Below are positions 29,393 through 36,036 of a stretch of 44,474 bases of DNA, one piece after another; the first letter of the stretch is position 1, and each line of letters starts with the position of its first letter. This DNA comes from Bacteroidales bacterium (lineage in GTDB: Bacteria; Bacteroidota; Bacteroidia; Bacteroidales; UBA7960), in NCBI GenBank assembly GCA_019429055.1, contig JAHYJP010000010.1, forward strand, positions 1-44,474, written 5' to 3'. A program made the translations under genes and the position numbers. The notes under the pieces are model-generated. The model was not told the origin of the DNA. It ran no database searches and saw nothing but the letters and a program-made list of their open reading frames with translations.

Positions 29393-30235
29393 TCAGCCAA
29401 GGACCCTTTCATCTCTCCTGAAGAAATCGCGGGCCATAACAAAACCCTTAATGATAAGAAACTGAAGGGTAAGGAAAAAGATAATGGCTGCACCGGAAGG
29501 TATATTAAAGAAGTAGGAAAAGAACAAACCTGCCAGAGAACCAAGTGTACCCCATAATGCTGCCAGTGGAATAATTTTGGCAAAATCGCGGGTAAACAGC
29601 ATTGCCGTGATCTGAGGAATAGTAAATAAACTCAGAACCAGGATGATCCCTACTGTTCGTATACTTATCACAATAGACAGTGCAATGATCACCGACATGG
29701 TATAACGGAAAAACGCTACCGGAATTCCCATGATCCTAGCAAATTCCGGATCAAAAGCTGTATACACGATGGGACGGATAAAAATGATGAAAAATGCCAG
29801 GGTTAAAACAAAAAAGGCAAGTAAAAAATACAATTCGGCTTTTCCCACAGAAAGGATACTTCCAAAGAGAAAACTCATCAGATTGGGCGTATAACCAGGA
29901 GTCATGAAAACAAAAATAATTCCCAGCGCCATCCCTAAAGACCATAGAATAGCTATTGCGCTATCTTCACGTACTTTTCCCTTTTGCGAAATCCATTCGA
30001 TACCGGTTGCCGATAAAACAGCAAATACTGCAGCACCAAGTAAAGGATTCAAACCCAGAAAATAAGCCATGCCAATTCCACCGAAAGAAGCATGGGTAAT
30101 ACCTCCGGTTATGAAAACTATTTTACGTGACACTATGTAAGTACCCACCATTGCGGCAAGTAAACTGGTTAGCAAGGCGGCAGCCAGTGCATTACGAAAA
30201 AATGCATACTCCAGGATAGAAAAGACTTCGCTCAT
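29393..30235 (-). CDS. znuB: Metal (zinc/manganese) ABC transporter permease, ZnuB-like (track start 30298; Met at 30235 avoids overlap)
   Basis: ABC-3 family: GTYIVSRKIVFITGGITHASFGGIGMAYFLG, IRTVGIILVLSLFTIPQITAMLFTRDF. Confidence 0.88.
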   Translation of the reverse strand: MSEVFSILEYAFFRNALAAALLTSLLAAMVGTYIVSRKIVFITGGITHASFGGIGMAYFLGLNPLLGAAVFAVLSATGIEWISQKGKVREDSAIAILWSLGMALGIIFVFMTPGYTPNLMSFLFGSILSVGKAELYFLLAFFVLTLAFFIIFIRPIVYTAFDPEFARIMGIPVAFFRYTMSVIIALSIVISIRTVGIILVLSLFTIPQITAMLFTRDFAKIIPLAALWGTLGSLAGLFFSYFFNIPSGAAIIFFLTLQFLIIKGFVMARDFFRRDERVLG

Positions 30236-30237
30236 AC

Positions 30238-30975
30238 TCAATGATCTTTTAACACCCTGTGTGGCACGGGTCCATGGGCGATTATATCTACGGGACAATT
30301 ATAAACTTTCAACAGATCTTCGGTAAGCTGGTTGGATGGGTGATAGTGCAGCGTACCATTTACACAGGCTATGGTTTTGACCATTGGTGATATGGTACCG
30401 ATATCGTGCGATACAAGTAAAATGGCCATTTTTTTGTTCAACTCTTTCAGCCAGCGGTAAAGCTCTTGCTCAAAACCTTTATCGACAAAGGTATTAGGCT
30501 CATCAAGTATAAGTAACTGGGGTTGATTGATCAATGCACGGCACAGGAAGGCTTTCTGGGTTTGCCCGCCCGACAATTCACCTATGGGTTTTGAAGCCAG
30601 GCGTATCAATCCTGCTTCATCAAGCATTTGATTAACCTGATTCTTTTGTCTGCCACTTAAATGCGGAAACCAGCTTTGTTCTGTCTTGAGACCTGATCCC
30701 ACCAGGTCTCTTACAGTGATGGGGAAACTCTTATCAATCTGTGAGATCTGGGGCAAATAACCCATATTGGGTTTACCCTGCGGAAAAGTTACTTTCCCTT
30801 TGAAAAGAGGCAAAATACCCAGCAATACTTTGATCATGGTAGTTTTGCCGCCACCATTGGGTCCAATGACACCAATAAAGTCGTTGGGAAAAATTTCCAG
30901 GTTTACGTTCTTCAGCACAACTTCTGAAAAATAACCTGTAGCAACATTTTCCAGTATGGCCAGGGGTTTGCTCAT
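30238..30975 (-). CDS. znuC: Metal ABC transporter ATP-binding protein, ZnuC-like
   Basis: Walker A GPNGGGKTTMIK, signature LSGGQTQKAFLCRAL, Walker B LLILDEPNTFVD. Confidence 0.92.
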   Translation of the reverse strand: MSKPLAILENVATGYFSEVVLKNVNLEIFPNDFIGVIGPNGGGKTTMIKVLLGILPLFKGKVTFPQGKPNMGYLPQISQIDKSFPITVRDLVGSGLKTEQSWFPHLSGRQKNQVNQMLDEAGLIRLASKPIGELSGGQTQKAFLCRALINQPQLLILDEPNTFVDKGFEQELYRWLKELNKKMAILLVSHDIGTISPMVKTIACVNGTLHYHPSNQLTEDLLKVYNCPVDIIAHGPVPHRVLKDH

Positions 30976-31853
30976 CGCAAATAAATATTTAAATTTTGGG
31001 AAAGTTTTTCCATTTCCAGAACCCAGTCGTAGGCCAGCGGATTGATCTGCACGATTTCAGCACCGGTTTCTTCCGCCACAAGCCTGGCATTGCGAATATC
31101 ATATTCCTCCTGGATAAAGATCACCGGAACATTTTCAGCCCTTGCATGCCTGATAAGATGGCTTAGCTGAGCAGGAGAAGGCTCTTTGCCTTCGTGTTCT
31201 ATGGAAACCTGCTCAAGATCATAATCGCGCGCCAGGTAAGTAAGCGCAGGGTGAAAAATCATAAAACGTCGCTGGCTTAAGCTTTGTGCTATTTCCTGCA
31301 TTTCAAAGTGGATTCTCTCCACATCAGCCAGCACATAGGGATAGTTCTCATTTATTGCTTCATCCAGTTCCGGATAAATTTCCAAAATTACATCGCGCAA
31401 AACAGGCAACAGTTCCAGCATTACTTTGGGCGATATCCAGATGTGAGGATCAATGCCACCCTCATGAAAATGATCTCCATGTTCGATAGGTTCACCTCGA
31501 ATCAGTTCAACAAAGTTTCCCAGATCCACATGTTTAATATCGGGGTTCATTTCATCGAGCCTGCGGATAAATGCCTGCTCATAGCCCAGCGAAGGTACCT
31601 GGAAATAAATACCTGAATCAGACAGCTTCTGCATCTGACGCGCAGTGGGAGAATAGGTACCGTGGCCCGACCCCTGGGGTACCATCACATTTACTTCAAG
31701 CGCTTCACCCGTAAGGCGATCCACAAAATAATGCAGGGGAGCAATGCTTACTGAAACAATTGGCTCCCGGGTTTCTCTTTCTGCGCAACCTGCCAGAGTA
31801 AACACCAGCAGTGCGGATATACTAACTATCTTAAGTAATTGCATTTTTTTCAT
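30972..31853 (-). CDS. znuA: Metal ABC transporter substrate-binding lipoprotein, ZnuA-like
   Basis: Lipobox LVFTLAGCAE; VSIAPLHYFVDRLTGEALEVNVMVPQGSGHGTYSPTARQMQKLSDSGIYF; GIDPHIWISPKVM; FHPALTYLARDYDLEQVSIEHEGKEPSPAQL. Confidence 0.92.
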   Translation of the reverse strand: MKKMQLLKIVSISALLVFTLAGCAERETREPIVSVSIAPLHYFVDRLTGEALEVNVMVPQGSGHGTYSPTARQMQKLSDSGIYFQVPSLGYEQAFIRRLDEMNPDIKHVDLGNFVELIRGEPIEHGDHFHEGGIDPHIWISPKVMLELLPVLRDVILEIYPELDEAINENYPYVLADVERIHFEMQEIAQSLSQRRFMIFHPALTYLARDYDLEQVSIEHEGKEPSPAQLSHLIRHARAENVPVIFIQEEYDIRNARLVAEETGAEIVQINPLAYDWVLEMEKLSQNLNIYLR

Positions 31854-31959: not shown

Positions 31960-31978
31960 TTTGCAACTATGTTGCAAA
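31960..31978. promoter_or_regulatory. Predicted Zur operator upstream of znuA, overlapping a TAnnTTTG -7-like element on the minus strand
   Basis: Perfect 8-3-8 inverted repeat TTTGCAAC-TAT-GTTGCAAA; minus strand reads TAAATTTGCAAC. Confidence 0.75.
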
Positions 31979-32159
31979 TTTAGAAAAAATAATTGATTAA
32001 ATGGTATTATATTTGGGTCAGATTTAAGAAAAACTATGAATCAGTAGAAAAAGAGTAAACCATAAAATCCCGCCAGATTCAATAATAAATAACACAGCAA
32101 AAAAGCAAAGGCAGGATTTTGGTTGTTTATGCACCCCAATCTCAGACTTAATCTTCACT

Positions 32160-32630
32160 TCACCTTATAACCCTCACCAGCTCCGCATCCTCCAGTATAT
32201 AGATCAAATGATCGAGATTGTCCTGATTAAGTTTCAGACGACCCTTTACTTCGATGAAATCATCAGTGCTCAAACGCCTGAAGCGAATATTATGGGTAAC
32301 TATACTGTGGATTTCCACAACCGACTCAATACCGGCCCCGGCACAAAAGAAGCACATTTGCATGGGTACATGTGAGAGAACAAATGCTTCACCCGTTACA
32401 TCGGCCGGAAGGAAAAATCCCCGAAGGGTTATTTCCTGGCCATCCATTTGTTTTACAGTATTTCCAAAACGGGGCACTTGCAGAAAGGTATTGTACTCAA
32501 TGCTATATCGGTATCGCATACGAACATCGTTAAGCAGGATATTCCATTCCTTATTGTTGTAATGGCTTTCCAGGTCAGGGCCCTGGTTCATTAGAAATAA
32601 AACGAGTGTGAGACTGAGTATTTTAAGCAT
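32160..32630 (-). CDS. Small exported DUF3299-like protein
   Basis: QVPRFGNTVKQMDGQEITLRGFFLPADVTGEAFVLSHVPMQMCFFCAGAGIESVVEIHS; overlaps the upstream permease ORF by 8 bp. Confidence 0.6.
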   Translation of the reverse strand: MLKILSLTLVLFLMNQGPDLESHYNNKEWNILLNDVRMRYRYSIEYNTFLQVPRFGNTVKQMDGQEITLRGFFLPADVTGEAFVLSHVPMQMCFFCAGAGIESVVEIHSIVTHNIRFRRLSTDDFIEVKGRLKLNQDNLDHLIYILEDAELVRVIR

Positions 32631-34053
32631 TTTCGGGACGTGTTAAGGTAAAATGAATATCTGTTTTGTAAGCCAGCCATGCGGGTATAATTGATGCCAG
32701 AATGCCCGTTGCCAGCGCATAAACCAACAAAAGCAATTCTCCGGGTTGCAGCATTATAAAGGCCACATCAGGCATAAAATGAAACGATGGCAAAAACATC
32801 CATATTGCCCTTGCCAGTATAACCCCTGTAATCCATCCTCCAAAGGCCAGTATCATTCCCTGCAAAAGCAGCATAATAAAAACCTTATGACGGGAAGCTC
32901 CCATAACACGCATCAGGGCAATTTCATGTATTCCTCTTCTGAGTGTATTCCACAAATGCACAAAAATATTGATTCCCGAAATGATAATGATCGCCCATGC
33001 AATTATATTCAATGCATCAAAACCAAATGCCAGCAATGAAAACAAACGGTTTAGCTCCAATGCGGGCGATGCAGCCTGCATATTGGTACTTTCATTGATC
33101 ATTCGGGGAAGTTGAATATTGGCTGCCGGACTGCGATATATCAGAAGCATGGCCGTAATCTCTCTGTGGTCATCTGTGCCGGGGACATGTGCTTGTTGCT
33201 GAGTTGCCAGAAACAGTTCCATTTCTTCGCGGCTGATATCCTCCCCTGCTTCAATTCTTGCTCTTATTTCATTGAGTTGCGGATTTTCCTGGTGGTCATC
33301 AAAGTGATGATTATGACTATCGTGCTCATGGTGGGCGCTGTCATCATGATCATGTTCGTGATGCTGGTCACAGTCCGCATGCTCATCATGTTCATGGTCG
33401 CAGTTTTCATGGTCATGTTCATCATGAGTATGATCCTGACCATCATGCACTGCCCACACTGTTTCTACCGGAGTAAGAATAAGGTTGTCAAGAACAGTAC
33501 CGGTTGGTGCCATAATTCCTGACACAGAATAATGGAAGTAATCGTGTGCATGACCCACATCGCGAAAACCATGTACACCGTAGAAGTGGTCTCCGACTTC
33601 AAGTCCGGTCATTTGTGCTACGCGATACCCTACAGTAGCTTCAAACACACTTTCAAACCATTGCCCTCGGTAAAGTTCTGCATTGTATAACCCTGAATAT
33701 TCAATGGTTGTACCCACAATCCTGAATCCGCGATAGTTGTCGCCCAGGGCGAGCGGGATATATTGTTTAACCAGGGGATTTCGGGCAATATTTTCTGCTT
33801 CGCGCAGGTTTATATTTCCTGTGGGATAATCAGCATGCAGAACGGATGACAAAATGAGCTGAACCGGACTGCCTTTGGCACCCATTACCAGGTCAACACC
33901 TGCCAGGTTGCGTTGCACACTATCTTTCATCTGCCGGTCGGCAAGGAGAATGAGTGAAATAATACTGATGCCAATGGCAAAAAGCAACAGGCTCAGCAGT
34001 GAGTTGGCGGGACGCGAGATGAGTCTTTTAAAAGCCAGATTGAAAATATACAT
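32623..34053 (-). CDS. FtsX/MacB-type ABC transporter permease with His-rich periplasmic insertion
   Basis: N-terminal FKRLISRPANSLLSLLLFAIGISIISLILL; C-terminal RGIHEIALMRVMGASRHKVFIMLLLQGMILAFGGWITG; DHTHDEHDHENCDHEHDEHADCDQHHEHDHDD insertion. Confidence 0.88.
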   Translation of the reverse strand: MYIFNLAFKRLISRPANSLLSLLLFAIGISIISLILLADRQMKDSVQRNLAGVDLVMGAKGSPVQLILSSVLHADYPTGNINLREAENIARNPLVKQYIPLALGDNYRGFRIVGTTIEYSGLYNAELYRGQWFESVFEATVGYRVAQMTGLEVGDHFYGVHGFRDVGHAHDYFHYSVSGIMAPTGTVLDNLILTPVETVWAVHDGQDHTHDEHDHENCDHEHDEHADCDQHHEHDHDDSAHHEHDSHNHHFDDHQENPQLNEIRARIEAGEDISREEMELFLATQQQAHVPGTDDHREITAMLLIYRSPAANIQLPRMINESTNMQAASPALELNRLFSLLAFGFDALNIIAWAIIIISGINIFVHLWNTLRRGIHEIALMRVMGASRHKVFIMLLLQGMILAFGGWITGVILARAIWMFLPSFHFMPDVAFIMLQPGELLLLVYALATGILASIIPAWLAYKTDIHFTLTRPENA

Positions 34054-34065
34054 AGCCTGTTTCTG

Positions 34066-34692
34066 TTAAAGTTCGCAAATATTGGAGAAGTATTTTTTTA
34101 AGCGCTGATCATGGGTTGCTATGATCCAGCATACAGGCTTTCTGGTAAGTGGTAACCGGATCAATTCAACGAATTTTTCACAGTTGCGGTCATCCAGACT
34201 CGATGTGGGCTCATCGGCCAGTACATAAGAGGGTTTATTGGCCAGCGCACGTGCAATGCTGAAACGCTGCTGCTCGCCCTGGCTCAGTTTGTAAGGTTTC
34301 TTGTGTGAAAGATGCGAAATCCCCAGTTTCTCCATTAATTGTTCCAGATGAGAATTATCTGCAGCACTGCCCGAAAGCTTCCGGGCAGCCTTCAGATTTT
34401 CAAAAACACTTAACCCCTCCATGAAAAAATGTTTCTGAAAGATCATACCCATTTGCTTTCCGCGAAAAGCATCCCGTTTCGTATCTTTCAATTGATTCAA
34501 TTTTATTCCATCAACATCCAGATCACCGGATTGTGGGGTAAGAATCCCTGACAAAAGGTGCAGCAAAGTTGTTTTTCCGCATCCCGATTCACCTAAGATC
34601 AGTAAATTATCACCGGGCTTGCATTGAAGATCAGGGAAAGTGAAAGGTGGGCCGGATGGATATTGAAATTTTAAAGAATGAGTAAATAACAT
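34066..34692 (-). CDS. LolD/MacB-type ABC transporter ATP-binding protein
   Basis: Walker A GESGCGKTTLLHLL, GMIFQKHFF, signature LSQGEQQRFSIARAL, LADEPTSSLD. Confidence 0.92.
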   Translation of the reverse strand: MLFTHSLKFQYPSGPPFTFPDLQCKPGDNLLILGESGCGKTTLLHLLSGILTPQSGDLDVDGIKLNQLKDTKRDAFRGKQMGMIFQKHFFMEGLSVFENLKAARKLSGSAADNSHLEQLMEKLGISHLSHKKPYKLSQGEQQRFSIARALANKPSYVLADEPTSSLDDRNCEKFVELIRLPLTRKPVCWIIATHDQRLKKYFSNICEL

Positions 34693-34740
34693 TTTCGGAT
34701 ATGGGTTTTAAAGTGCCGGGATTATTTCATGAAAAAGTAA

Positions 34741-35151
34741 TTAAACTGAACAATTTTTGCACTTACCGTGCACCAGCAGATCAAAGTTTTCAGGTGAAAA
34801 GCCTGACGGAAGCCGGGGGGTATTAAAAGGTTTATGCGAAATACAATATACTCCGCTGCAGTTATTACAATAAAAATGAACGTGATGTGTGCCGTGCGGC
34901 TTATCTCTTGAAGGGGTCATTGCATAACGAACCTCCCCTCCTTCCAGCGAAATACTATGTATTACATTCTGATTGAGAAAGTTACGAAGTGTACGATACA
35001 CAGTGGTGCGATCGTAATTGTATCCCAGTTTATCACGGATCTCCGATTCAGAAAGAGCCGATCCGGCTTGCGATAAAGTTTTTAATATTTCAACACGGCA
35101 TGGCGTGCGCGAAAGATTATTCTCTTCAAGTAAGGCATAAATGTCGTTCAT
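34741..35151 (-). CDS. zur: Fur-family transcriptional regulator, predicted Zur (track start 35178 lies inside the palindrome; Met at 35151 more plausible)
   Basis: LSRTPCRVEILKTLSQAGSALSESEIRDKLGYNYDRTTVYRTLRNF; HGTHHVHFYCNNCSGVYCI; C-terminal GKCKNCSV. Confidence 0.85.
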   Translation of the reverse strand: MNDIYALLEENNLSRTPCRVEILKTLSQAGSALSESEIRDKLGYNYDRTTVYRTLRNFLNQNVIHSISLEGGEVRYAMTPSRDKPHGTHHVHFYCNNCSGVYCISHKPFNTPRLPSGFSPENFDLLVHGKCKNCSV

Positions 35152-35170
35152 AAGTAATTTCGGAATATTG

Positions 35171-35191
35171 ATTTGCAACGCTGTTGCAAAT
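35171..35191. promoter_or_regulatory. Predicted Zur operator upstream of zur, overlapping a TAnnTTTG -7-like element on the minus strand
   Basis: Perfect 9-3-9 inverted repeat ATTTGCAAC-GCT-GTTGCAAAT; minus strand reads TATATTTGCAAC. Confidence 0.8.
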
Positions 35192-35227
35192 ATAATATTT
35201 TTCTTCTTGTTTTGCTCTATTCTTCTT

Positions 35228-35349: not shown

Positions 35350-36036
35350 ATGGGAATATTCATTGCAATAAGTGTGATCCTGGTATGGGCACTGCATCTG
35401 GCCTGGATGCTTTTATATCTGGACTTTTCGGCAAGTAATCCCTGGATGTATTTCCATATTTTTCTGCAGGGATGGTTGTATACCGGATTATTCATAACCG
35501 GACATGATGCCATGCACGGAACCATTTCCAAAAACAAAAATGTAAACAAAGTGCTGGGCACCATTGCCACATTTCTTTTTGCGGGTATGTCTTACAAGAT
35601 GTTACGGAAAAATCATGGTTTACATCATAAGGATCCTGCTACCGGAAATGACCCTGATTTTTATGTGAAATCGCAGAATTTCTTTATATGGTGGAGTATA
35701 TTTATGTGGAGGTATGTTACCATTATTCAACTGGTTATCATGGCAATTGTCTACAATATCTTTATCCATGTTTTCGGGCTGGGAGAGTTAAAAGTGATCA
35801 TTTACTGGGCATTGCCTGCCATACTTGGTACTTACCAGCTTTTTTACTTTGGTGTTTACTGGCCCCACAAGGAACCGCATCTTGATCTAATGATGCCACA
35901 CAGGGCCCGTACACTGAAAAAAAATCACATTTGGGCTATGATAAGCTGTTATTTCTTCGGCTACCACTGGGAACATCATGAAGATCAGTTTGTCCCCTGG
36001 TGGAAACTTTATTCAACAAAAACCAGAAAATCCTGA
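35350..36036 (+). CDS. Fatty-acid desaturase superfamily membrane protein, beta-carotene ketolase (CrtW)-like
   Basis: GHDAMHGTI, HGLHHKDPATGNDPDFY, LFYFGVYWPHKEP, FFGYHWEHHEDQFVPWW histidine boxes. Confidence 0.78.
   Translation: MGIFIAISVILVWALHLAWMLLYLDFSASNPWMYFHIFLQGWLYTGLFITGHDAMHGTISKNKNVNKVLGTIATFLFAGMSYKMLRKNHGLHHKDPATGNDPDFYVKSQNFFIWWSIFMWRYVTIIQLVIMAIVYNIFIHVFGLGELKVIIYWALPAILGTYQLFYFGVYWPHKEPHLDLMMPHRARTLKKNHIWAMISCYFFGYHWEHHEDQFVPWWKLYSTKTRKS

Follow-up and report, generated by a model that had tools for sequence, protein, structure and literature searches.

We found that two perfect palindromes in the window, by which we mean the whole stretch of 44,474 nucleotides of Bacteroidales DNA that was analysed, are very probably operators of a zinc uptake regulator (Zur), whose zinc-loaded dimer would lie over the -7 promoter element and repress three units, namely zur with its ZrgCBE/PA4064-66-like ABC operon, znuACB, and a TonB-dependent receptor gene on another contig. 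The regulator would be the Fur-family protein encoded at 34741-35151. When zinc is sufficient, its metal-loaded dimer is predicted to bind the core TGCAAC-N3-GTTGCA, and in the promoter-side arm the outer bases TTTG would at the same time form the second half of TAnnTTTG, the consensus published for the -7 element of the primary sigma factor in Bacteroidota (PMC7366714). The bound dimer would cover the -7 region and the start site and keep the genes off; when zinc falls, the repressor would leave and all three units would be induced. What we infer is that this protein binds the sites, that zinc is its ligand and that RNA polymerase is excluded sterically; zinc is named as the ligand because the target genes are zinc-regulon genes.

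Palindromes and downstream genes in the window

The sites, the genes, their conservation and their register were seen directly. Both palindromes were present as the original prediction had described them, with identical arms and spacer length; only the 3-bp loop differs, and the core given above is common to both. In operator 2 the symmetry remains perfect for one extra base pair per side, out to 35171-35191. Read on the coding (minus) strand, the znuA operator lies in TAAATTTGCAAC and the zur operator in TATATTTGCAAC, in each of which an arm overlaps TAnnTTTG, again as predicted. The operator is about 107 bp upstream of the gene for znuA and about 21 bp upstream for the Fur-family gene, and at neither window promoter was a TTG recognisable 19-20 bp ahead of the -7 box. 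With up to 3 mismatches allowed, the window held two matches, both with 0 mismatches, whereas shuffles of the window averaged 0.69.

Table 1. Features of the window (all listed genes are on the minus strand)
Feature	Position	Strand	Remarks
Zur-type operator 1 (predicted)	31960..31978	-	before znuACB; TTTGCAAC-ATA-GTTGCAAA on coding strand, TTTGCAAC-TAT-GTTGCAAA on forward strand
Zur-type operator 2 (predicted)	35172..35190	-	before zur; TTTGCAAC-AGC-GTTGCAAA on coding strand, TTTGCAAC-GCT-GTTGCAAA on forward strand
Candidate -7 element, znuA promoter	31975..31982	-	TAAATTTG; the operator arm supplies its TTTG with its outer part
Candidate -7 element, zur promoter	35187..35194	-	TATATTTG; overlaps the operator arm
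znuA, zinc-binding lipoprotein	30972..31853	-	PF01297, 167 bits
znuC, ATPase	30238..30975	-	PF00005; closest NCBIfam is AztA
znuB, permease	29393..30298	-	PF00950, 231 bits
zur, Fur-family regulator, 136 aa	34741..35151	-	PF01475, 43.8 bits; conserved ATG at 35151
ABC ATPase, LolD/MacB-type	34066..34692	-	ZrgC/PA4064-like by position
FtsX/MacB-type permease	32623..34053	-	PF02687 and PF12704; ZrgB/PA4065-like by position
Small secreted protein	32160..32630	-	possible distant DUF3299; ZrgE/PA4066-like by position

The second operator precedes an operon in which zur comes first, followed by the genes for the ABC ATPase, the permease and the small secreted protein. The match of the last to DUF3299 is sub-threshold (12.3 bits, E 0.33, cut-off 22) and shares the top rank in this genome with a second weak match, and the gene stands in the expected position. 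The permease has a long periplasmic loop that is very rich in His and Asp (window 33270-33460, HDHEHDEHADCDQHHEHDHDDSAHHEHDSHNHH). No gene for a ZrgA-like His-rich protein was seen within the zur-ABC operon, and the permease loop is possibly a zinc-binding segment in its place. Divergent from zur lies a fatty-acid desaturase-like gene (window 35350-36036), a position that is kept in loci L017-L019.

Copies of the box in the genome

Pattern searches of the 4.18-Mb genome (382 contigs) returned only two perfect copies of TTTGCAAC-N3-GTTGCAAA, both within the window, as against an expectation of about 0.001 (an arithmetic estimate for a motif with 16 fixed positions in 4.2 Mb of uniform base composition). 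Both perfect copies precede zinc genes. Among imperfect copies there were one with 1 mismatch and three with 2 mismatches. The 1-mismatch box, TTTGCAATAGTGTTGCAAA, occupies contig 207:1736-1754 (L003/L145), 59 bp before a gene for a TonB-dependent receptor, and TATATTTG is present there in the same -7 register as at the window sites. This receptor is likely to be a third regulon member, so the predicted regulon in this genome would comprise zur and the ABC genes of its operon, the importer of the inner membrane and a receptor of the outer membrane. The three 2-mismatch copies (L004-L006) fall within or next to genes without an obvious part in zinc handling and were set aside, and the genome-wide 3-mismatch set looked like background (46 matches versus 22 for the control).

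The genome contains five Fur-family genes, and regulators of the same family can share sites, so the box might be bound by another of the five. We regard this as quite unlikely, since the box precedes this particular gene as well as orthologues that were found without using the motif, and no perfect copy exists elsewhere in the genome.

The regulator and its metal

Membership of the regulator in the Fur superfamily is indicated by its PF01475 score, which exceeds the cut-off of 23.1 bits, and the protein carries the motifs CxxC...CxxC and HxxHHxHFxC. The structural CxxC...CxxC zinc site occurs in most members of the superfamily; in our alignment its residues C95, C98, C131 and C134 are invariant, as are H65 and C103. 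Every NCBIfam Zur/Fur model left the regulator below its cut-off, including the curated Zur model NF008646 (28.6 bits, cut-off 167), which is a narrow equivalog named for the E. coli-type protein, and a miss of which says little on function. The regulator profile matched E. coli Zur 4mtd at 4.6e-8 and 3eyy, which we take to be Nur, at 8e-5. In E. coli Zur the regulatory zinc site is formed by H77, C88, H96 and E111; H65 of the regulator aligns with H77, whereas no Cys counterpart of Cys88 was found in the regulator alignment. Candidate residues for a regulatory metal site are those of the HHxH cluster and C103, which is invariant. The AlphaFold model of the protein has a mean pLDDT of 69.5, and most of its metal-binding half stays under 55.

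A regulator of the Nur type, or a broader divalent-metal sensor, with the znu-like ABC system importing nickel or several metals, is an alternative that we consider improbable. The window boxes can be read as TTGCAA-N5-TTGCAA, which fits the Nur-box consensus of Streptomyces coelicolor, tTGCaa-N5-ttGCAA, exactly (PMC3919588), and since that box is the same in arms and spacing, the box cannot name the metal. Such arms may, however, simply be common to divergent Fur-family proteins, and the targets here and in relatives are of zinc-regulon types (the ZnuA match in Table 1, COG0523 proteins, the ZrgBC-like ABC system). No nickel genes were recognised at the sites in this genome, that is, at zur-ABC, znuACB and the TonB receptor, and the profile is closer to E. 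coli Zur than to 3eyy. Zur stays our preferred reading of the regulator.

Conservation in relatives

A protein search yielded four close zur orthologues (86-94% identical), all of which have perfect 16-base arms around varying loops (AGC, CTT, AAA and AAA) and TAnnTTTG at the operator overlap in each case. The alignment of related zur promoters, proposed originally as a check, therefore came out in favour of the operator. In two distant relatives of the regulator (40-42% identity) the boxes are imperfect.

In a motif-blind test, a regulator profile search of 198 genomes of the same order gave 30 loci. The core was found with 0-1 mismatch within 200 bp upstream in 19 of the 19 best loci (>105 bits), while only 0.5% of shuffled upstream regions reached 2 mismatches or fewer. 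Weaker regulator matches (below about 103 bits) had an upstream box in only 2 of 11 cases, and at several of these the box was instead downstream, ahead of the next gene; part of the wider regulator family would accordingly have its box elsewhere or rely on something different. An operator common to zur and znuACB, as had been proposed, is supported by the orthologues, the motif-blind loci and the TonB-receptor site together.

Wider surveys gave 63 sites with at most 1 mismatch across the order, compared with 10 for a reversed control, and about 56 versus 5 sites with the exact core in the same-class genomes of a phylum sample (both hand counts), figures that overstate certainty because the relatives are phylogenetically linked, the sites are not fully independent, and many surveyed loci were chosen via the motif itself. 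Intergenic boxes in Bacteroidia precede genes for Zur, ZnuA, TonB receptors, COG0523 GTPases, MerC-like proteins, ABC ATPases, FAD oxidoreductases, DUF6769 proteins and P1B ATPases, the COG0523, MerC and FAD-oxidoreductase labels having been read from translations and not from a family search; boxes within genes look background-like. In loci L118, L123, L131, L161 and L163 the box stands between a MerC-like gene and a divergent gene for Zur or a ZrgC-like ATPase, and MerC-like membrane proteins look like recurring regulon members. That the palindromes are chance or repetitive sequence, for which nothing speaks beyond their AT-rich arms, is hardly credible: conservation already refutes it, and the shuffles, the genome scan, the order-wide control and the motif-blind test all oppose it.

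Registers of the box relative to the promoter

The overlap between operator and -7 element was assessed in 395 genomes of the class, with about 133 oriented arms TGCAAC-N3-GTTGCAAA (hand count). A TA exactly two bases past the full arm, which makes TAnnTTTG on the other strand, followed 62 of these arms (47%), compared with 9% on average at other offsets; the gap-0 peak is inflated, as the arm itself supplies CA, and was normalised to the full-arm count. At the -7-register sites (n=61), TTG peaked 19 bp upstream of TAnnTTTG (11 versus about 2 elsewhere), and this excess at the expected -33 position indicates that many of them are real promoters. The overlap seen originally at two sites thus recurs across the class in a fixed register. 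An asymmetry of the outer TT towards the promoter side (42 versus 18 of 61) was not taken by itself as proof of the overlap, because the third register described below shows it too, and the TA-offset test was used instead.

With the -7 overlap, transcription would start inside the palindrome and only one arm would enter the transcript. This bears on the idea that the palindromes work in RNA, as a hairpin or attenuator: perfect inverted repeats could fold as hairpins if transcribed, but the loop changes between orthologues and the arms do not, and it is sequence that is conserved and not mere complementarity. We consider a role in RNA very improbable and retain the protein operator as the preferred explanation.

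In a second register TAnnTTTG lies downstream of the core, with gaps of 17 and 18 bp accounting for 25 and 11 of 118 cases, where a flat distribution would give about 4 per gap. Here the downstream arm supplies the -33 element through its TTG, which stands 19-20 bp away from TAnnTTTG. Judged from these sequence counts, the -7 and -33 registers both appear well supported. The original prediction had not anticipated this register or the third one.

A third register has a core-to-TAnnTTTG gap of 12-13 bp, 5 bp closer than the -33 register, or about half a helical turn from it. It is mostly confined to genes for CPC-type P1B ATPases, DUF6769 and similar small proteins, which usually come directly after a zur-like gene, and the canonical -33 element was absent at these promoters in the surveyed relatives. 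The box was observed 12 bp before TAnnTTTG of CPC-type P1B ATPases in L033, L053, L059, L126, L135 and L150, and in the 12-13 bp register before small His-rich DUF6769-type proteins in L052, L054, L099, L104, L105, L106 (placed by eye) and L154, in most of which the DUF6769-type gene comes directly after a zur-like Fur paralogue. The box in this register may not be repressive in the relatives. It is possible, although we hold it with considerable doubt, that distinct registers encode the response, the -7 and -33 registers being repressive and the third allowing zinc-loaded Zur or a paralogue to activate zinc export; activation in the third register is a guess. Tandem boxes about 36-39 bp apart were also observed (L107, L115, L248, L251 and L086), and at some of these promoters (e.g., L248 and L251) one box lies over the -33 and the other over the -7 element.

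Significance and comparison with known systems

A Zur regulon as such is of a known kind. In the open-access literature we found no Zur box for Bacteroidota or Bacteroidia, an absence that is no proof, with RegPrecise and subscription journals outside the search; the motif string combined with zinc returned only unrelated papers there. With the box and its registers, zinc regulons of gut and environmental Bacteroidia can be predicted from a concrete motif, and the predictions extend to orphan genes such as those for DUF6769 proteins, MerC-like proteins and FAD oxidoreductases. The box and its registers are also a clean example of bases common to an operator and to the -7 and -33 elements of Bacteroidota, which are themselves unusual, and the register makes a testable prediction as to where repression, and where perhaps activation, takes place.

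The Vibrio zrgC-zrgB-zrgE genes and Pseudomonas PA4064-PA4066 are both under Zur (PMC9817125, PMC11481552). The operon of the window resembles Vibrio ZrgABCDE and Pseudomonas PA4063-PA4066 in its order of ATPase, MacB/FtsX-type permease and small secreted protein, and differs in that the regulator gene comes first, the permease has a His-rich loop, and the DUF3299 match is not significant. The word "exporter", originally applied to this ABC operon, is defensible, because arguments have been made that the Pseudomonas ABC pair exports pyochelin as a MacB-type system.

The third register recalls zitB of S. coelicolor, a zinc exporter gene for which Zur acts as an activator from a box just ahead of the promoter (PMC5472717), in having the box by the promoter of a zinc exporter. 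The zitB box, however, lies 8 nt upstream of the -35 element, whereas the box in the P1B register of relatives covers the -33 region and keeps its core a constant 12 bp from the -7 element. The S. coelicolor Nur box, for all its likeness in TTGCAA-N5-TTGCAA arms and spacing (PMC3919588), belongs to a system with another metal, phylum and set of target genes, and the box described here is marked by a conserved C...G within the N5.

Zur regulons of Proteobacteria, Firmicutes and Actinobacteria share with the system proposed here a Fur-family repressor, a short palindrome, operators at or over promoters, and targets such as znuABC, TonB receptor, COG0523 and ABC genes. The E. coli Zur motif, TRWNAYRWTATAWYRTNWCA (PMC6103462), differs from the present box, and what sets the latter apart from the known Zur regulons is that its arms contain the Bacteroidota -7 or -33 element.
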